From Candidatus Gastranaerophilales bacterium (GTDB lineage Bacteria; Cyanobacteriota; Vampirovibrionia; Gastranaerophilales; Gastranaerophilaceae): 64,000 nt of DNA. The translations under genes were made by a program, and so were the position numbers. The first letter of the stretch is position 1. Each line of letters begins with the position of its first letter. Below, piece after piece: positions 10,496 to 49,482 of the stretch. Under the pieces are notes generated by a model. The model was given only the letters and a program-made list of their open reading frames with translations, was not told the DNA's origin and made no database searches. Where the stretch lies: positions 124,001 through 188,000 of the forward strand of contig CALVBS010000001.1 in assembly GCA_944325865.1 (NCBI GenBank), given 5' to 3'.

Positions 10496-10613
10496 ACACT
10501 CTCCCTTTTTAATAAAGATATTTTAGTCAAAAAAAAAATGTTTTTCAATTCGTAACATGTAGTGTTAATTTGTAACAATTTTGTAAAGAAATATTAAAAA
10601 AGCGTTTATATTA

Positions 10614-10645
10614 AGCAATCTATAAATAAATATATACTTTATATA
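10614..10645 (+). promoter_or_regulatory. bipartite AGCAAT-N14-ATACTTTATATA promoter-like element, copy 1
   Basis: AGCAAT (10614-10619) is followed by 14 bases and ATACTTTATATA (10634-10645), which ends 30 bases before the ATG of the 10676 gene. The same two boxes with the same 14-base gap occur upstream of 22268, 22767, 40716 and the minus-strand gene ending at 49293. An AAGAAAT box starts 28 bases further upstream (10586). Confidence 0.7.
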
Positions 10646-10675: not shown

Positions 10676-11215
10676 ATGGGTTTCTTAACAGGCGCATTTC
10701 TAAAGATTTATGCCGCACGGCAAAGGATTCAACTGCAGCACCAGTTGACATCCGTTACAATGCGTCTTAGCCGTGTCACCCGACAAATGGGAGATGCACA
10801 AAAACAACTTACCCGAATGAAACAAATGCAGAGCATGAATATGAAGGCTATGCAGTCTTATGCTATGAAAGGTGCAAGTGCTGCTATGAATCAATCTATA
10901 TTTGATTTACAAAATAGCGGCTTATCAGAGGCACAAATGTCATCACAAATGATGTCTATCAACAGTGCATTTACGATGAAACAACAGGATATTGCTCTAC
11001 AATTCTCTCAAATGCAATCGCAGCAGGATATGGCTATGCAGGAATTTGAAGAGGCACAACTTGAACCTCTTAAAAATATGGAAGAAAGCTTGCAGGTTGA
11101 AAAAGCATCTATTGAATCACAACTCAAACTCGTTGAGGGTCAAGAAAAAGCTGCAGGCGAAATGGAAAAAGCAAGTTCAAAAGATTTCGTTCCGGAATAT
11201 ACCGGCGGAGGTTAA
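10676..11215 (+). CDS. Met/Gln-rich coiled-coil protein of unknown function
   Basis: The 179-residue protein begins with a short hydrophobic stretch (MGFLTGAFLKIYAA). It then becomes a long Met/Gln-rich helix (MKQMQSMNMKAMQS; MKQQDIALQFSQMQSQQDMAMQEF), ending with a Gly-rich tail EYTGGG. Heptad spacing of hydrophobics suggests an extended coiled coil. No enzyme motif is seen. The CAA/CAG/ATG-rich codon composition differs from neighbouring housekeeping genes. It carries the bipartite promoter-like element found upstream of other lineage-specific genes here and is followed by its own terminator, so it is monocistronic. A structural or secreted filament-like role is possible but unproven. Confidence 0.85.
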   Translation: MGFLTGAFLKIYAARQRIQLQHQLTSVTMRLSRVTRQMGDAQKQLTRMKQMQSMNMKAMQSYAMKGASAAMNQSIFDLQNSGLSEAQMSSQMMSINSAFTMKQQDIALQFSQMQSQQDMAMQEFEEAQLEPLKNMEESLQVEKASIESQLKLVEGQEKAAGEMEKASSKDFVPEYTGGG

Positions 11216-19761: not shown

Positions 19762-22149
19762 ATGATAGAAAATCTTGAACAGCTTAAACTGGCAATCGAA
19801 GTAGAGGAAAAACACCGCTACATAGATATACGCGGAAAAAGCCAGTGTTTCTCAAGTTTTATAAAAAAAGAAGCACAAAAACAATATCACCTTTCAAAAA
19901 AGAATCCGCGTTGGGCTGTTATTATTGAAACATTTGAGCATTATCCGTTTGCCTCGGTAAATGAACGCAGACGTGCGATTGAAACACTTATTAAAGTTAT
20001 CAAATCAGAAATTAAAACATCCAAACTTTCGCAGGAAGAACTGACTCATAATCCTGAAATTCCTAAAAATCCTAATGAAGTTGACGTTATGTACGTTAAA
20101 GGCGTTGGACCGAAAGTTGCATATAAACTAAATAAACTGGGAATATATACCGCAAATGACCTGATGTGTTATTTCCCTAAAAAGCATGTTGATTATTCAT
20201 CAAGAACTCTCATTAAAAATTTGAAAGAAGGAGACAATACTACAGTTTTCGGGTATATTAAATCTGTTTCCGCATTTAACACAAAAAATAACCTTTCCGT
20301 TGTAAAAGTTACTGTAGCAGATGAAAGCGGAAATCTTGAGTTAAGTTTTTTTAACGCAAAAGGAAATCGATTTACACTGGAAAGAACTAAGGCTCAATTT
20401 CCGCACAATGCAGGCATAATGCTCTCCGGAACCGTAAAAGTCAACAATTATAACAAAAAGCTTACTATTGATAAGCCGACTTATTCAATAATGACCGGAG
20501 AATTTCTTGAAGGTAACAATACCAATTTAAACCTTGGTCGTATAGTTCCGGTTTATACTGTGTGTGAAGATTTAAGCATTAAAACACTAAGAAAAGCTAT
20601 TTACAATGCAATTCAGCTTTATAAAGAGCATATTGTAAATATTGTTCCTGATGAAATTAGAAAACGTCTTGGAATTATGGATAAAAAACTTGCGGTTGAA
20701 CAAATTCATTTTCCTGATAATAAAGACGCTCTTGAACACGCCAGATTCAGTTTGATTTTTGAGGAATTATTTCTCGTACAGTTAAAACTTGTAAGAATCA
20801 GAGAAGAAAACAGTACAAAATCCGCACTTGCCCTCAAAATTAAACAGGATGGTCTGGTGGAAAAATTTATAAAAAGTTTGCCTTTTGAATTAACCGGAGG
20901 ACAGAAAAAAGCAGTAAATGAAATTCTGAACGATCTAAATTCTGAAAAGCCAATGGCAAGACTTTTACAGGGAGATGTCGGGAGCGGGAAAACTGTTGTG
21001 GCTTGTATAATGCTTTTGGCAGGTGTTGAAAACGGATATCAGGGGGCTCTGATGGCTCCGACTGAAATTCTTGCTCAGCAGCATTATAATAACCTTATTC
21101 AGTGGCTTACCCCGTTAGGTTTAAGTGTCGGCTTATTTTTAGGAAGTCAGGGTAAAAGAGTTCGTGACAAATTTCGTCAGGATTTATTGAACGGGCAAAC
21201 AAATATCGCCGTCGGAACTCATGCACTTATTCAAGAAGGTGTAGAATTTAACAATCTCGGGGCAATAGTTGTTGATGAACAACACAGATTCGGGGTAAAG
21301 CAGCGTAATATTTTAAGAAAGAAATCTCAAAATCCGCAAATGCTTACAATGACAGCTACTCCGATTCCAAGGACTCTGGCAATGACAGTTCATGGAGATT
21401 TGGATTTAACAATTATTGATGAACTGCCCAAAGGCAGACTCCCTATTATAACAACACTTACATCTTCCCATAGAGGAGTTTATGATTTAATTCAAAGAGA
21501 AGTCGAAAAAGGGCGTCAAGCTTATGTTGTTTATCCTTTAATTGATGAGAGTGAAACGCTTTCGGCAAAAGCGGCAACTGTTGAGGCAGAGCATCTTCAA
21601 GAGGAAGTTTTCCCTCAATTTAAAGTTGGTCTTTTGCACGGAAAACTTAAAAATGATGAAAAAGAACAAATTATGGCAGATTTTAAAAATAAAAAGTATG
21701 ACATACTTGTTTCAACTACAGTAGTGGAAGTCGGAGTTGATGTGCCGAATGCGACAGTTATGGTTATTGAAAATGCTGAAAGGTTCGGACTTTCTCAGCT
21801 TCATCAGTTGAGAGGCCGTGTCGGCAGAAACGAACTTCAATCGTACTGCGTCCTTGTATCAGGTTCACGCTCACAAGAAACCAGAGAACGTCTTGCTATT
21901 ATGACACAAACTAATGACGGGTTTGTAATTGCGGAAAAAGATTTACAACTGCGTGGTCCCGGAGAATTTCTCGGAACTCGCCAGAGCGGTCTTCCTGATT
22001 TAATAATTTCTGATATTGTCCGCGATGCAAAAATTCTTGAGCTGGCACGAAATGAAGCTATCGACTTTATTAAAACTCATAATATGGACGAATACCCGCT
22101 TCTGCAAAAGATTACCTCATTGCAAATGTTTAATGGTATTGATATTTAG
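19762..22149 (+). CDS. recG: ATP-dependent DNA helicase RecG with an N-terminal extension
   Basis: A 795-residue RecG, which unwinds and reverses stalled replication forks and Holliday junctions. Wedge/OB-domain sequences around VFGYIKSV are followed by Walker A GDVGSGKT, DEQHRFG (motif II), MTATPIPRTLAMT (motif III), VVEVGVDVPNATVM and QLRGRVGRN, then the C-terminal DLQLRGPGEFLGTRQSG. Ordinary RecG is about 690 residues. The extra 100 at the front (before VDVMYVKGVGPK) match the longer form familiar from cyanobacteria. It follows the phosphohexomutase by five bases with only a weak ribosome site. Confidence 0.97.
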   Translation: MIENLEQLKLAIEVEEKHRYIDIRGKSQCFSSFIKKEAQKQYHLSKKNPRWAVIIETFEHYPFASVNERRRAIETLIKVIKSEIKTSKLSQEELTHNPEIPKNPNEVDVMYVKGVGPKVAYKLNKLGIYTANDLMCYFPKKHVDYSSRTLIKNLKEGDNTTVFGYIKSVSAFNTKNNLSVVKVTVADESGNLELSFFNAKGNRFTLERTKAQFPHNAGIMLSGTVKVNNYNKKLTIDKPTYSIMTGEFLEGNNTNLNLGRIVPVYTVCEDLSIKTLRKAIYNAIQLYKEHIVNIVPDEIRKRLGIMDKKLAVEQIHFPDNKDALEHARFSLIFEELFLVQLKLVRIREENSTKSALALKIKQDGLVEKFIKSLPFELTGGQKKAVNEILNDLNSEKPMARLLQGDVGSGKTVVACIMLLAGVENGYQGALMAPTEILAQQHYNNLIQWLTPLGLSVGLFLGSQGKRVRDKFRQDLLNGQTNIAVGTHALIQEGVEFNNLGAIVVDEQHRFGVKQRNILRKKSQNPQMLTMTATPIPRTLAMTVHGDLDLTIIDELPKGRLPIITTLTSSHRGVYDLIQREVEKGRQAYVVYPLIDESETLSAKAATVEAEHLQEEVFPQFKVGLLHGKLKNDEKEQIMADFKNKKYDILVSTTVVEVGVDVPNATVMVIENAERFGLSQLHQLRGRVGRNELQSYCVLVSGSRSQETRERLAIMTQTNDGFVIAEKDLQLRGPGEFLGTRQSGLPDLIISDIVRDAKILELARNEAIDFIKTHNMDEYPLLQKITSLQMFNGIDI

Positions 22150-22205
22150 TTTAATTTAAAAGAATATTAATTATTAAGAAATATAAAGCTAATATTTGCC
22201 TTAAG

Positions 22206-22237
22206 AGCAATTTTATAATCTTTAAATACTTTATATA
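22206..22237 (+). promoter_or_regulatory. bipartite promoter-like element, copy 2
   Basis: AGCAAT (22206-22211), 14 bases, ATACTTTATATA (22226-22237), ending 30 bases before the ATG at 22268, the same distance as copy 1. AAGAAAT starts at 22176, 30 bases upstream of the first box. Confidence 0.7.
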
Positions 22238-22267
22238 TATAAGGATTAAGAGAAAAGGGATAACTAT

Positions 22268-22600
22268 ATGGTAATGAGATATGGAATAGACGGAATCGGA
22301 TATATGCCTGCAACACGAAGCAGCAACACAACTTATATTCAAAATAACTTTTACGGGAACAGTGTGTACTCCGGAAATGCGAATTTTGGATATAACGGAT
22401 ACGGCTGTGGCTGCTGCGGCGGTTACAGCGGAAGCTGTTTCGGATTCGGTTTTGCCGGCGGGTATCCGCCTCCTCCGCCGCCATCTCATCATTACTGCGG
22501 TGACAACGAGCTCCCGGGCATAGCAAAATGGTCACTCGGAATCGGCGTAACAAGTTCACTTGTCGGATTAGGTATAAAATTATTTTCTAAAAATTCATAA
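22268..22600 (+). CDS. Gly/Cys/Tyr-rich lineage-specific protein with NTTYIQNNFYG motif
   Basis: The 110-residue protein contains NTTYIQNNFYGNSVY at about 19-33, a Gly/Cys/Tyr-rich middle with a six-proline run, and a C-terminal hydrophobic helix (IAKWSLGIGVTSSLVGLGIKLF). The same layout, including NTTYIQNNFYG and the terminal helix, occurs at the start of the next gene, so the two are paralogues. No known family is recognised. The start ATG at 22268 follows GAAAAGGGA. Higher GC than its surroundings comes from the Gly/Pro codons. It has its own bipartite promoter element and terminator. Confidence 0.85.
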   Translation: MVMRYGIDGIGYMPATRSSNTTYIQNNFYGNSVYSGNANFGYNGYGCGCCGGYSGSCFGFGFAGGYPPPPPPSHHYCGDNELPGIAKWSLGIGVTSSLVGLGIKLFSKNS

Positions 22601-22627
22601 AAGCACTTTTAATAAGTGCTTTTTTTA
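22600..22627 (+). terminator. terminator of the 22268 gene
   Basis: AAAAGCACTT and AAGTGCTTTTTT pair around TTAAT, directly after the stop codon. Confidence 0.85.
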
Positions 22628-22700
22628 TTGACCAAAATCAGCTTATAGCTTTAAAATTTAAAATATTTGTAAAGAAATGTAAAGATATATACTTAAAATT

Positions 22701-22732
22701 AGCAATTATCTATTTATTATATACTTTATATA
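22701..22732 (+). promoter_or_regulatory. bipartite promoter-like element, copy 3
   Basis: AGCAAT (22701-22706), 14 bases, ATACTTTATATA (22721-22732), ending 34 bases before the ATG at 22767. AAGAAAT starts at 22672, 29 bases upstream of the first box. Confidence 0.7.
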
Positions 22733-22766
22733 TACAAGAGAGTAAAACAAGAGAGGTATAAAGAAC

Positions 22767-24206
22767 ATGGCTTCGTATATGCAACCTAGATCAAATTTAG
22801 GCGGTATTGCCAGACAACCGTTTAGACCAGGACAATGGCAAGGGTTTAAAGGTGTCTCCAGAAATACTACCTATATTCAAAATAACTTCTACGGAAGCAG
22901 TGTTTTTGGTGCCAACAGAAACTACGGCTACTACACTCCTCAACCGTCTTATCATGATTGCGGCAATAATGATATGCCTAAATGGATGAAATGGATGGTT
23001 GGTATCGGAGTAGGGTCTTCTTTACTCGGCGGTATTTTAAAATTGTTCCAGAAGGATAAACCTGAAGGCGGTGGCGACGTTCAAGAACCTGTACAAACTT
23101 CTACGCCTGCTCCGGTTGAGGCACCTACTCAAGCTCCAGCTCAAGAGGTTACCGAATCTCCTGAAACTCCAACAGGCACCCCTACCCCTGCTGAGGGTGG
23201 CGATGGGGTAAAAGCCGATTACGCAGGATTAAACAGCCTAAATAGTATGGTTTGTCGTGATGACAGCGGCAAAACAACTAATATCGAGGGTAATTTTAAG
23301 ATTACGGAAGCTGGTGCAAATGGAGAACCGCCTAAGTCATTTACAATTACAGACAGCTCTTCAGGAACTGCTCATGAATATACATATGAATTTACAGGCC
23401 AATATGATGATAACGGAAAACCTATATATACCTGCAAATCAATGAATGGTCAGGCTGCAAGTACAGAAAACCAATATACACTTGAAATGAAAGGTAAAGA
23501 CGGAAAACCTGAACTTGTTCAGTACGATGGACAAGATAACTACACTAAAGGTTTAAAATTCGGTTCTGCAGCACCTGCACCAACACCGACACAAGCTCCG
23601 GGACAAGCTCAGGGACAAGCTCCATCTGCACCTTCTATAGTTGTTACCCAACCTCCAGCCGATGACAGCCAGGCTCCGTCAGGGCCTGATGAAACCCCGA
23701 AAGGTCAGGAAACACAAGCTCCTTCTTATACCGAAAAGGATGCTTCACAGGCAAGAGCAATGGGACAGGGTGTTGCAGATGATTTAGTCGGATACACAAA
23801 AGATAAGCAAAAAACTCATGCTAGAAATGTTATTGCATCACTTAACTCTGATAACATTGCAGACTTTTTAAACGGTTATAGGAATAACAAAGGTCTCGGA
23901 GATAACATAATGAGACAAATAAATACAGAGTATGGCTGGACTAATCAGGAAAAAGTGGAATCTCAAAAACAAATCCTACGCAACCTGTTAGAAAAGGCTA
24001 ACGATATGGGTATTAAGTTAAATTCAAATGAGCAGGCTTATTGTAAGAAATTTCTTAACACAGATGCCAGTACAACCAAAATTTCAAATGCAGTAGCAGA
24101 TCAGCTGGATAAAATTATAAACAAACTTTTAGAAGAAATGAAACCGAAACCTGGTTCTTACGGTGGCGGTCAAAGCGGCGGCGGTGGTGCCGGCAGTACA
24201 TTTTAA
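22767..24206 (+). CDS. large Pro/Gln-rich paralogue with NTTYIQNNFYG motif
   Basis: This 479-residue protein repeats the plan of its neighbour: NTTYIQNNFYGSSVF (about 33-47), a Tyr-rich stretch, then a membrane-type helix WMKWMVGIGVGSSLLGGILKLF. After that come two Pro/Thr/Gln/Ala-rich linkers (about 100-140 and 265-320) around a beta-rich domain with KTTNIEGNFKITEAG. A helical C-terminal domain and a GGGQSGGGGAGSTF tail follow. The linkers resemble those of surface-exposed or wall-spanning proteins. No enzyme motif is seen. It has its own bipartite promoter element and terminator. Confidence 0.87.
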   Translation: MASYMQPRSNLGGIARQPFRPGQWQGFKGVSRNTTYIQNNFYGSSVFGANRNYGYYTPQPSYHDCGNNDMPKWMKWMVGIGVGSSLLGGILKLFQKDKPEGGGDVQEPVQTSTPAPVEAPTQAPAQEVTESPETPTGTPTPAEGGDGVKADYAGLNSLNSMVCRDDSGKTTNIEGNFKITEAGANGEPPKSFTITDSSSGTAHEYTYEFTGQYDDNGKPIYTCKSMNGQAASTENQYTLEMKGKDGKPELVQYDGQDNYTKGLKFGSAAPAPTPTQAPGQAQGQAPSAPSIVVTQPPADDSQAPSGPDETPKGQETQAPSYTEKDASQARAMGQGVADDLVGYTKDKQKTHARNVIASLNSDNIADFLNGYRNNKGLGDNIMRQINTEYGWTNQEKVESQKQILRNLLEKANDMGIKLNSNEQAYCKKFLNTDASTTKISNAVADQLDKIINKLLEEMKPKPGSYGGGQSGGGGAGSTF

Positions 24207-40582: not shown

Positions 40583-40648
40583 TAGGGACACAAAAGGCCA
40601 TGATTTATTCTAAGAAATATTAACATTTGTAACATAAATAAAATCTAA

Positions 40649-40680
40649 AGCAATTTTACCTTAGGAAAAAACTTTATATA
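40649..40680 (+). promoter_or_regulatory. bipartite promoter-like element, copy 4
   Basis: AGCAAT (40649-40654), 14 bases, AAACTTTATATA (40669-40680), ending 35 bases before the ATG at 40716. An AAGAAAT box starts at 40612. Confidence 0.68.
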
Positions 40681-40715: not shown

Positions 40716-41603
40716 ATGGGAATTGGATCAATCGCCAATCAAGGTTGGCAATGGGTAAAAAAAGGCGGCAGAGTTTATGGAGACCTTATATTGGGTACCG
40801 GTGCCGACACAATGACAAAAAAAATTCAACAAAGTGTTGCTAATAGAGCAGCAAATGGTAAAAATTATTTTAGTGCTGTTGGTACAGGTATTAAAGACGG
40901 AGTTAAGGCTTCTTATCAACATAATCTGGCACAATCGACAAGACATGGCGGATTCTTCAAAAATCTTTGGCATCAAATAGGAACAACGCCAAGGTTGGTT
41001 AAAAATGGGTGGAAACTCGGTTCAAAAGCTGCAAAATCAGCAGGTAAAAGCGGATTTTGGGGCGGAATTAAAGGTGCTTTCGGAGGGATTGCAAAACGTA
41101 TGCCTTTAATAGGCGGTCTTTTAATGGTAGCATCTGAAATTCCGAATATTTGGAAGGCAACAAAAGAAGAAGGTATCGGTGCAGGACTTAAAGAAACTGT
41201 TAAATCAGGTGCCAGAGTCGGTGCAGGTATGGCCGGAGGTGCAATCGGTGCAGCGTTATTGGCTCCTATACCGGTAGTCGGTCCGATTGTAGGCGGTATT
41301 CTTGGTTATATGCTCGGTGATAAAGTTGCAAGCCTGTTTACCGGAAAAAGCTACTCAGAAAAGAAAATGGAAGAACAGGAACAACTGGCACAACTTCAAC
41401 AACAACAGCAGCAACAGTTTGGATTCAATCCGGCAGGCGGTACATTTGATACGGGTTCAACAAATCCATTTGCCTATATGCAGCCAACAATGACACCGCA
41501 ACAATTAATGGCAATGCAGCAAAGTTTATATGGCGGAATGGGCGGAATAAATGATGACTTTATGTATATGACAATGATGAACAGATTGAATAGCTTAAAC
41601 TAG
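40716..41603 (+). CDS. Gly-rich hydrophobic protein with a Gln tract
   Basis: A 295-residue protein in three parts. The first is basic and amphipathic (residues 1-120; KKGGRVYGDLILGTG, SKAAKSAGKSGFWGGIKGAFGG). The second is a long Gly/Ala hydrophobic hairpin (about 165-205; GAGMAGGAIGAALLAPIPVVG, PIVGGILGYMLGD), and the last is a Gln-rich tail with seven Gln in a row followed by Met/Pro/Asn. The hairpin resembles glycine-zipper or bacteriocin-like membrane inserting segments. No family is recognised. It carries the bipartite promoter-like element and its own terminator. Confidence 0.85.
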   Translation: MGIGSIANQGWQWVKKGGRVYGDLILGTGADTMTKKIQQSVANRAANGKNYFSAVGTGIKDGVKASYQHNLAQSTRHGGFFKNLWHQIGTTPRLVKNGWKLGSKAAKSAGKSGFWGGIKGAFGGIAKRMPLIGGLLMVASEIPNIWKATKEEGIGAGLKETVKSGARVGAGMAGGAIGAALLAPIPVVGPIVGGILGYMLGDKVASLFTGKSYSEKKMEEQEQLAQLQQQQQQQFGFNPAGGTFDTGSTNPFAYMQPTMTPQQLMAMQQSLYGGMGGINDDFMYMTMMNRLNSLN

Positions 41604-46462: not shown

Positions 46463-46488
46463 CAATCTAAAAATATAAACAACAAAAA

Positions 46489-46519
46489 GAAGGCCCCTTA
46501 AATATAAGGGGCTTTAATT
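46489..46519. terminator. bidirectional terminator after pyk
   Basis: AAGGCCCCTTA and TAAGGGGCTTT pair around AATA. On the minus strand it would also close a transcript started at the orphan element at 46622. Confidence 0.85.
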
Positions 46520-46614
46520 TTGTTTTAGGAAGGTAGGAATAAGGAATAATTTTCTCTCTCTTTTGTTAAACGGATAATTTTTACTCTCTCTTAATATCTG
46601 TTTATTTAATGTTC
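46489..46614 (-). ncRNA. candidate small RNA driven by an orphan bipartite element
   Basis: No gene follows the minus-strand element at 46622-46653. A transcript from it would run about 125 bases and end at the bidirectional terminator at 46489. It contains no ATG-led frame of note, but two purine-rich AGAGAGAG blocks. It may be a small RNA or a dead promoter left after a gene loss. Confidence 0.3.
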
Positions 46615-46621
46615 TCTTGTA

Positions 46622-46653
46622 TATATAAAGTATATACTGAATAGCAAATTTCA
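46622..46653 (-). promoter_or_regulatory. degenerate bipartite promoter-like element (orphan, copy 6)
   Basis: On the minus strand ATACTTTATATA (46633-46622) is exact and continues TACAAGAG like copy 3. Fourteen bases upstream is TGAAAT (46653-46648), a four-of-six match to AGCAAT. It points away from the adjacent 46821 gene, toward pyk's terminator. Confidence 0.5.
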
Positions 46654-46753
46654 ATGTTGGAAAATTTTGTTACATAAGTTAACACAATTAATTTAACAAC
46701 AATACTATAGCCAAAACTACACATATAGCAGAGAAAATAATTCTAAATAGCTA

Positions 46754-49050: not shown

Positions 49051-49293
49051 TTATTGACGTGCCTGAGGAGAACGTATATATCTGGCATTTTTAGCATTTA
49101 CTGCATAACAAGCGATATTCAGCCTTTGTTTAAGCATCATCATGTTTTTATACATGTTTGCATAATCGTTCATTGCACCCATCATCTTATTTGGATCTAC
49201 CATTGATTCCATGTTGTCATGGTTATCCACTTTTTCTTCTGCGTATTTTTTGACCAATAGCTGGTCAATGTAGTCTTCAGCACCTATTGCCAT
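49051..49293 (-). CDS. small Met-rich lineage-specific protein with a bipartite promoter
   Basis: An 80-residue protein with an acidic N-terminus (AIGAEDYIDQLLVKKYAEEK) and a Met/Asn-rich helix (DPNKMMGAMNDYANMYKNMMMLKQRL). No family is recognised. It resembles the 46821 and 10676 products in composition. AGGGAGG precedes the ATG. The bipartite promoter element lies 88 bases upstream, further than for its companions, so it has a longer leader. Confidence 0.78.
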   Translation of the reverse strand: MAIGAEDYIDQLLVKKYAEEKVDNHDNMESMVDPNKMMGAMNDYANMYKNMMMLKQRLNIACYAVNAKNARYIRSPQARQ

Positions 49294-49381: not shown

Positions 49382-49413
49382 TATATAAAGTATTTTATGA
49401 TTTAAAAATTGCC
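49382..49413 (-). promoter_or_regulatory. bipartite promoter-like element, copy 5
   Basis: On the minus strand GGCAAT (49413-49408), 14 bases, ATACTTTATATA (49393-49382), followed by TACATAAGG. The first box differs by one base from AGCAAT. Confidence 0.65.
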
Positions 49414-49482
49414 TGAAATTGTTCTTTTATTAAGAAATGTTAAAATAAATTTTTTGAAGGCAATATTTTTTACTCTAAGAAC

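Follow-up and report, generated by a model that had tools for sequence, protein, structure and literature searches.

What reads the bipartite sequence, RGCAAT followed after 14 bases by ATACTTTATATA, that precedes several orphan genes in this DNA? The window, that is, the whole stretch of 64 kb that was analysed (G000:C1:124001-188000, from a genome, G000, of 2,026,133 bases (2.03 Mb) in 14 contigs), had been credited in an initial annotation with five such sites, and all five are found with the 14-base gap, four of them exact (with R as the first base) and the one at 40649-40680 with a single mismatch in box 2 (Table 1). The annotation had also put box 2 at 30 to 35 bases before the ATG in four of the five cases, and the gaps measure 30, 30, 34, 35 and 88 bases. 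When up to three mismatches are allowed, the window holds 7 core matches against a mean of 0.58 in dinucleotide-preserving shuffles, and none of 100 shuffles reached 7. A sixth site, on the minus strand at 46622-46653, is accompanied at the expected distance by an upstream repeat of the kind discussed below and precedes a predicted terminator-ended transcript with no protein gene. That these genes lack a standard -35/-10 pair holds in so far as sigma-70-like pairs occur at chance level, with 4 found and 3.4 expected, in a scan of 22140-22800, the stretch with two of the five promoters.

Table 1. Promoter elements, upstream repeats and associated genes in the window (positions are those of the window, except for sigma C)
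Feature	Position	Strand	Remarks
Core element	10614..10645	+	AGCAAT-N14-ATACTTTATATA, exact
Core element	22206..22237	+	exact
Core element	22701..22732	+	exact
Core element	40649..40680	+	one mismatch, box 2 is AAACTTTATATA
Core element	49382..49413	-	GGCAAT-N14-ATACTTTATATA, exact
Core element (sixth)	46622..46653	-	TGAAAT-N14-ATACTTTATATA, two mismatches; absent from the initial annotation
HLR1-type repeat	10580..10597	+	TTTGTAAAGAAATATTAA, 2 mismatches to WWTGTAAMNNWWTGTAAM; 35 bp before GCAAT
HLR1-type repeat, degenerate	22170..22187	+	ATTATTAAGAAATATAAA, 3 mismatches; 37 bp before GCAAT
HLR1-type repeat, perfect	22666..22683	+	TTTGTAAAGAAATGTAAA, the window's only exact copy; 36 bp before GCAAT
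HLR1-type repeat	40616..40633	+	AATATTAACATTTGTAAC, 2 mismatches; 34 bp before GCAAT
HLR1-type repeat	46669..46686	-	TGTGTTAACTTATGTAAC, 2 mismatches; 34 bp before GAAAT box
HLR1-type repeat, degenerate	49429..49447	-	TTTTAACATTTCTTAA, 4 mismatches to HLR1; usual distance
Regulated orphan gene	10676..11215	+	179 aa, Met/Gln-rich, no Pfam match
Regulated orphan gene	22268..22600	+	110 aa, N-terminal NTTYIQNNFYG module, no Pfam match
Terminator-like hairpin	22599-22623		after the 22268 gene
Regulated orphan gene	22767..24206	+	479 aa, N-terminal module as in the 22268 gene, no Pfam match
Regulated orphan gene	40716..41603	+	295 aa, no Pfam match
Regulated orphan gene	49051..49293	-	80 aa, no Pfam match; ATG 88 bp past box 2
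Predicted small RNA	46482..46615	-	~130 nt, putative ends; no ORF with a ribosome-binding site
Sigma C, RpoD-like paralog	G000:C4:20966-21952		

The element is far from confined to the window. Across the whole genome RGCAAT-N14-ATACTTTATATA occurs 36 times with up to two mismatches and 24 times with up to one, compared with 2 and 0 matches for the reversed pattern, so that the genome scan called for by the initial annotation places it above chance. The sites are intergenic, most often 25-40 bp ahead of a start codon. A 79-position sequence-only profile, built from 60 sites in several genomes, recovers some 43 sites in the window's genome at E<0.05. Counts are higher in a genome from a different genus of the family and lower in two further families of the order; one out-group genome has 4 weak matches (best E 0.01). 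When seven stretches of the window's genome are scored with a weight matrix, the sites exceed 13 and all other sequence stays under 2. The switch would comprise about 45 sites per genome. Among 289 genomes of the class, the core (up to one mismatch) is present in all 193 genomes of the order, which we take to be Gastranaerophilales, relatives of cyanobacteria that live in the gut and lack photosynthesis, often in 10-30 copies, and in only 2 of the 96 genomes of other orders, as a single copy each. In contigs of about 85,000 species, the labels among the matches listed are nearly all Candidatus Gastranaerophilales, Melainabacteria, Cyanobacteria or 'uncultured bacterium', and the few other names among them (Acinetobacter, Brachyspira) look like mislabelled bins. 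Of 114 sites in loci of other genomes, 112 lie in non-coding DNA. A real regulon with a dedicated promoter is strongly supported, since the element is conserved throughout the order, sits between genes and keeps a fixed spacing to them.

What the promoter controls is less easily named. Element and ORF start are separated by distances that peak at 25-40 bp and range from 15 to over 100 bp, and a gene starts within 120 bp downstream at 74 of 114 sites compared with 26 upstream on the other strand. The window gene on the minus strand at 49293 is conserved in other genomes behind the same core element. The five window genes had been described as encoding Met/Gln/Gly-rich proteins of no known family; none of the five has a Pfam match at E 0.01, and the enrichment is mild across the regulon (3.0 versus 2.5% for M, 4.3 versus 3.2% for Q and 7.2 versus 6.0% for G). 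Pfam finds only a few scattered domains (CHAP, glucosaminidase, transglutaminase, RHH, MgtE_N) in 121 downstream proteins. By a hydrophobicity test, rather than a signal-peptide predictor, an N-terminal hydrophobic stretch is absent from all 74 downstream proteins and present in 144 of 617 neighbours (p=2e-8); over their first 25 residues the downstream proteins are depleted in Leu, Ile and Lys and enriched in Asn, Ser, Thr, Gly and Pro. All nine proteins with a TTYIQNNFYG-like N-terminal module in the fetched loci have core-like sequence upstream, although it was the core that led to the choice of most of those loci. The module, RPGQWQG...TTYIQNNFYG, sits on differing C-terminal parts in the 22268 and 22767 proteins and at five further loci, and may act as a signal for sorting. 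A 62-aa ribbon-helix-helix protein (MARVLISMPERFLDEID...) lies behind the promoter at four loci and is possibly a second regulator in the circuit. At four others the promoter is followed by a gene for a protein of about 302 aa with weak similarity to MgtE_N, always divergent to an alpha/beta-hydrolase-like gene.

A second, upstream element had been overlooked, as had the sixth site and the small-RNA members described below, and few of the roughly 45 sites had been seen. This upstream element is a pair of TGTAAM-type direct repeats spaced by 10 bp, at fixed places some 33 and 22 bp ahead of GCAAT. Read on the opposite strand, the pair matches HLR1, (G/T)TTACA(T/A)(T/A)-N2-(G/T)TTACA(T/A)(T/A), to which the response regulator RpaB binds (PMC9241938, PMC13421787). 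In cyanobacteria, RpaB is the master regulator of light and redox responses. Relative to the G of GCAAT in 152 sites, KTAA words peak near -33 (85 sites) and -22.5 (78 sites) over a background of about 2 per position elsewhere, and a repeat spacing of 10 prevails, with 56 pairs versus 24 at spacing 9 and 16 at spacing 11. The published consensus, with up to three mismatches, is found between -42 and -12 at 75 of the 152 sites, compared with 4 in either of two windows that lie farther upstream and with 5.5 expected from shuffled windows (at most 12 in 100 rounds); in the other half or so of the sites HLR1 is degenerate. Taken alone, with two mismatches, the HLR1 pattern occurs 19 times in the whole window against 10 expected by chance, about a twofold excess; the weight of the evidence lies in its fixed position.

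The genome encodes three OmpR-type response regulators, one of which, near G000:C1 230746 and outside the window, is an RpaB ortholog (NCBIfam NF045944, 362.4 bits, cut-off 330); a second one scanned scores 205 bits, below that cut-off. RpaB homologs were noted in Melainabacteria in 2013 and suspected of having another function there, photosynthesis being absent (PMC3787301), and were later found in all three orders then known (PMC4040986). A homolog of NblS, the partner kinase of RpaB, has also been reported in the group (PMC3787301); the single histidine kinase that we scanned with the NblS model scores 77 bits against a cut-off of 1000. In the presence of an ortholog, HLR1-type repeats at a fixed upstream distance shift the annotation's 'sigma factor or activator' partly towards an activator, with an order-restricted RpoD-like sigma factor as a good candidate for the reader of the core. 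The RpaB of this genome groups with a protein from an out-group genome that has no core, and it thus appears that RpaB is ancestral and that the core is an innovation of the order.

The core itself matches none of the common promoter classes compared. In a logo of 152 distinct exact-core sites, the features that had not been selected for are a T-rich stretch after RGCAAT, an A at +17 in 97% of sites, (A/T)-A-T-purine after box 2 and the two upstream blocks; this logo cannot place the -10 element, since those letters were selected. Weaker genomic sites retain GCAAT and TTTATATA, and ATAC becomes TTTT, AGTT or similar. The simplest reading would be a -35 element GCAATT and, 17-19 bp on, a -10 element TTTATA/TATATA, a near-standard spacing that would put the start about 4-7 bp past box 2, at the conserved purines, and HLR1 around -73 to -55. 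If TACTTT is instead the -10 element and transcription begins near the A that lies two bases past box 2, HLR1 would fall at about -68 to -50. Cyanobacterial RpaB activates when HLR1 lies at -66 to -45 and represses when it lies at -38 to +23 (PMC13421787); measured from the putative starts, the repeats here, at about -73/-66 to -56/-49 depending on the start, would overlap partly with the former range and fall outside the latter; under either reading, activation is predicted. The housekeeping sigma-70 consensus TTGACA-N16-18-TATAAT does not match the core. The initial annotation had recognized no sigma-54, sigma-28 or common ECF consensus in it, and the 152-site logo bears this out, as does a genome scan for sigma-28. 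There is no conserved GC 10 bp past the GG/AG, as sigma-54 would demand (GG at -24, GC at -12, 10-bp spacing). Box 1 (GGCAATTTT) is loosely like the GGAAC-type -35 element of ECF promoters, and box 2 is unlike their CGTC/TCTA-type -10 element. An archaeal-type TATA box is ruled out by the bacterial gene content (RecG, sigma factors) and by ribosome-binding sites too close downstream.

In our view the element probably forms the core of a class of sigma-70-family promoters that RpaB activates. An HLR1-type RpaB site, made of TGTAAM/TGTTAA direct repeats 10 bp apart, would lie about 36-19 bp before GCAAT, followed by a -35-like RGCAATTTT, a -10-like (AWATAC)TTTATATA 17-19 bp further, a purine start 2-7 bp past box 2, a short leader with a ribosome-binding site, and the ATG. 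RpaB bound upstream would recruit RNA polymerase, as it does at low-light cyanobacterial promoters, and the unusual core would be read by a sigma factor, perhaps most likely the order-restricted, RpoD-like sigma C. Such a promoter would drive about 45 units per genome, namely orphan proteins without signal peptides and small RNAs.

It is also conceivable, if rather unlikely, that RpaB is the sole specific regulator and that housekeeping RpoD reads the core, with TACTTT (TAnnnT) as its -10 element and the boxes as the remnant of a -35 element that the activator has replaced. Such a scheme would account for the HLR1 repeats and the RpaB ortholog; TACTTT does retain T, A and T of the -10 hexamer, and most promoters of Synechocystis lack a -35 element (PMC9241938). 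However, RGCAATTTT is conserved at a fixed distance, which is needless for a simple activated promoter, and weak sites drop the TAC of TACTTT yet retain TTTATATA. Moreover, out-group genomes that possess RpaB and RpoD have no core, and RpaB alone thus cannot explain a core that is specific to the order.

If a sigma factor does read the core under RpaB activation, as we favour, the candidates are few. The genome encodes RpoD, three RpoD-like paralogs (A, B and C), a FliA/WhiG-type factor (D) and two ECF-type factors. In a tree that includes the sigma factors of nine out-group genomes, drawn from eight families, C is present in all seven genomes of the order that were examined and in none of the nine out-group genomes. 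Two out-group families contribute long-branched relatives of A, and for B and D there are clear members in the out-group. Presence and absence over 192 genomes of the order does not decide between A and C, both being nearly universal, and the few weak or missing matches are about what incomplete genomes lead one to expect. By co-occurrence alone, sigma C is the likeliest reader, with sigma A as a runner-up that is nearly as good.

The confinement of sigma C to the motif-bearing order could be taken further, by supposing that an order-specific sigma factor (C or A) is the only switch and that the repeats serve the alpha subunit of RNA polymerase as an A/T-rich, phased UP element, or else bind some other factor, a view that we regard as improbable. 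The upstream region is indeed A/T-rich with a 10-bp phasing, and the 62-aa RHH gene behind the element in four genomes could supply such a factor. Against this, G and C stand at set places in the repeats (TGTAAC), their fit to the RpaB consensus is far above that of shuffles of equal composition, and an RpaB ortholog is present in the genome.

The regulon appears to reach beyond proteins. At 28 of 180 sites an intrinsic terminator precedes any credible ORF, and the predicted small RNA of the window carries a C/U-rich CCTTATTCCTACCTTCCT and an intrinsic terminator, AAGCCCCTTATATTTAAGGGGCCTTCTTTTT. Candidate small RNAs were also noted at thirteen further loci, two of which carry tandem, near-identical copies of promoter and C/U-rich small RNA about 450 bp apart. 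The candidates are spread over several families of the order, and many have C/U-rich stretches resembling an anti-Shine-Dalgarno sequence. One group has a common ACTAACCTTCTACAC..ACGAGGAATT and a terminator that varies in sequence and largely keeps its pairing: 6 of 8 pairs are changed on both sides in at least one genome, and each pair is broken or gapped in some. Duplexes predicted for the small RNA at C4:59864 are stronger with 14 regulon leaders than with 205 control leaders (-15.3 versus -10.6 kcal/mol), with p=0.004 as the best of four RNAs tried, another giving p=0.01 and two being not significant. Its best predicted partner is the leader of the window gene 40716. These predictions are no more than suggestive of pairing between small RNAs and regulon leaders.

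The same transcripts bear on the idea that the element is no promoter and acts otherwise in RNA or DNA, as a leader RNA element or a mobile repeat. A fixed distance to many start codons would suit a leader element as well, but the element also stands before ORF-less, terminator-ended transcripts, its distance to the ATG is as variable as given above, its flanks differ among sites, and no Rfam family matches either the element or the candidate small RNAs, all of which makes this idea very improbable. Chance, for which it could be said that single matches are cheap in A/T-rich letters, is refuted by the shuffles, the reversed-pattern controls and the sharp order boundary, and its likelihood is negligible.

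Returning to an RpaB-activated promoter class, one may ask where its protein products go. A FlhA/FliH/FliF/FliE-like operon lies at G000:C4:181450-187560; its FlhA-like protein reaches neither the equivalog cut-off for flagellar FlhA nor that for SctV, and the operon recurs in several families of the class, some genomes having a flagellar-type FlhA as well, so that it is possibly a separate type III-like export system. Elsewhere in the genome (G000:C5:149163-150641) a 492-aa protein corresponds to the cytoplasmic C-terminal half of FlhA/SctV only; it was found in all nine motif-bearing genomes searched and in several more besides. No core element precedes the FliE/FliF/FliH/FlhA-like operon; its region has only a weak site, near C4:191936. 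Because the element is missing from this operon, and because families devoid of the element have the apparatus too, we rejected type III secretion as what defines the regulon; it may still be the route that the products take. Judging by titles and abstracts, we found no paper on a type III secretion system in this group. Sec-independent export of regulon products would fit the lack of hydrophobic N-termini and the type III-like operon in the genome, and is put forward here as a hypothesis. A still more far-reaching scenario, which we hold to be doubtful in its entirety, is that RpaB runs an order-wide regulon through an unusual core promoter and a dedicated, order-specific sigma factor that reads it, and that this regulon links exported lineage-specific proteins to a family of C/U-rich small RNAs of anti-Shine-Dalgarno type, whose targets are messages made from this very promoter.

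Our literature search found no paper joining Gastranaerophilales with a promoter motif. What is added here is an activator candidate with a published binding site, the order-wide distribution and the non-coding members. The question raised in 2013 about the role of RpaB in these organisms (PMC3787301) is now directly testable, and HLR1-type sites at a fixed place before a large, order-wide promoter set offer a concrete candidate answer. The promoter also gives a handle on many orphan genes of uncultured gut bacteria, is of use for annotation and leads to candidate small RNAs absent from Rfam.

Several known systems invite comparison. With sigma-28 (FliA/WhiG) promoters the element shares two boxes about 14-15 bp apart, and a FliA/WhiG-type sigma factor is encoded in the genome; the boxes differ from TAAA-N15-GCCGATAA, a pattern that is not clearly enriched in the genome (9 versus 5 in controls). 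In the Hrp-box/HrpL-type regulons of type III secretion, a bipartite promoter stands before many scattered genes whose products have no signal peptide. A bipartite promoter, scattered genes, products without signal peptides and a type III-like operon in the genome are all encountered here as well, but the export operon lacks the element, the apparatus occurs in element-free families and the boxes differ from the hrp box. The group 2 sigma-70 promoters of cyanobacteria are comparable in that RpoD-like paralogs exist here and a sigma factor of such a kind is the likeliest reader; the core is GCAATT/TTTATA instead of TTGACA/TATAAT, and the sigma clade is order-restricted in our sample. The RpaB/HLR1 regulon differs in that its targets seen here include orphan proteins and small RNAs instead of photosynthesis genes, in that a special core promoter is attached to the site, and in that the repeats, many of them degenerate, are found on the other strand when compared with the consensus in its usual notation. 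Shared with it are an RpaB ortholog above the cut-off, two direct repeats with the same letters and the same 10-bp period, and a place upstream of the promoter, which, measured from the putative starts, would partly overlap the range from which RpaB activates.
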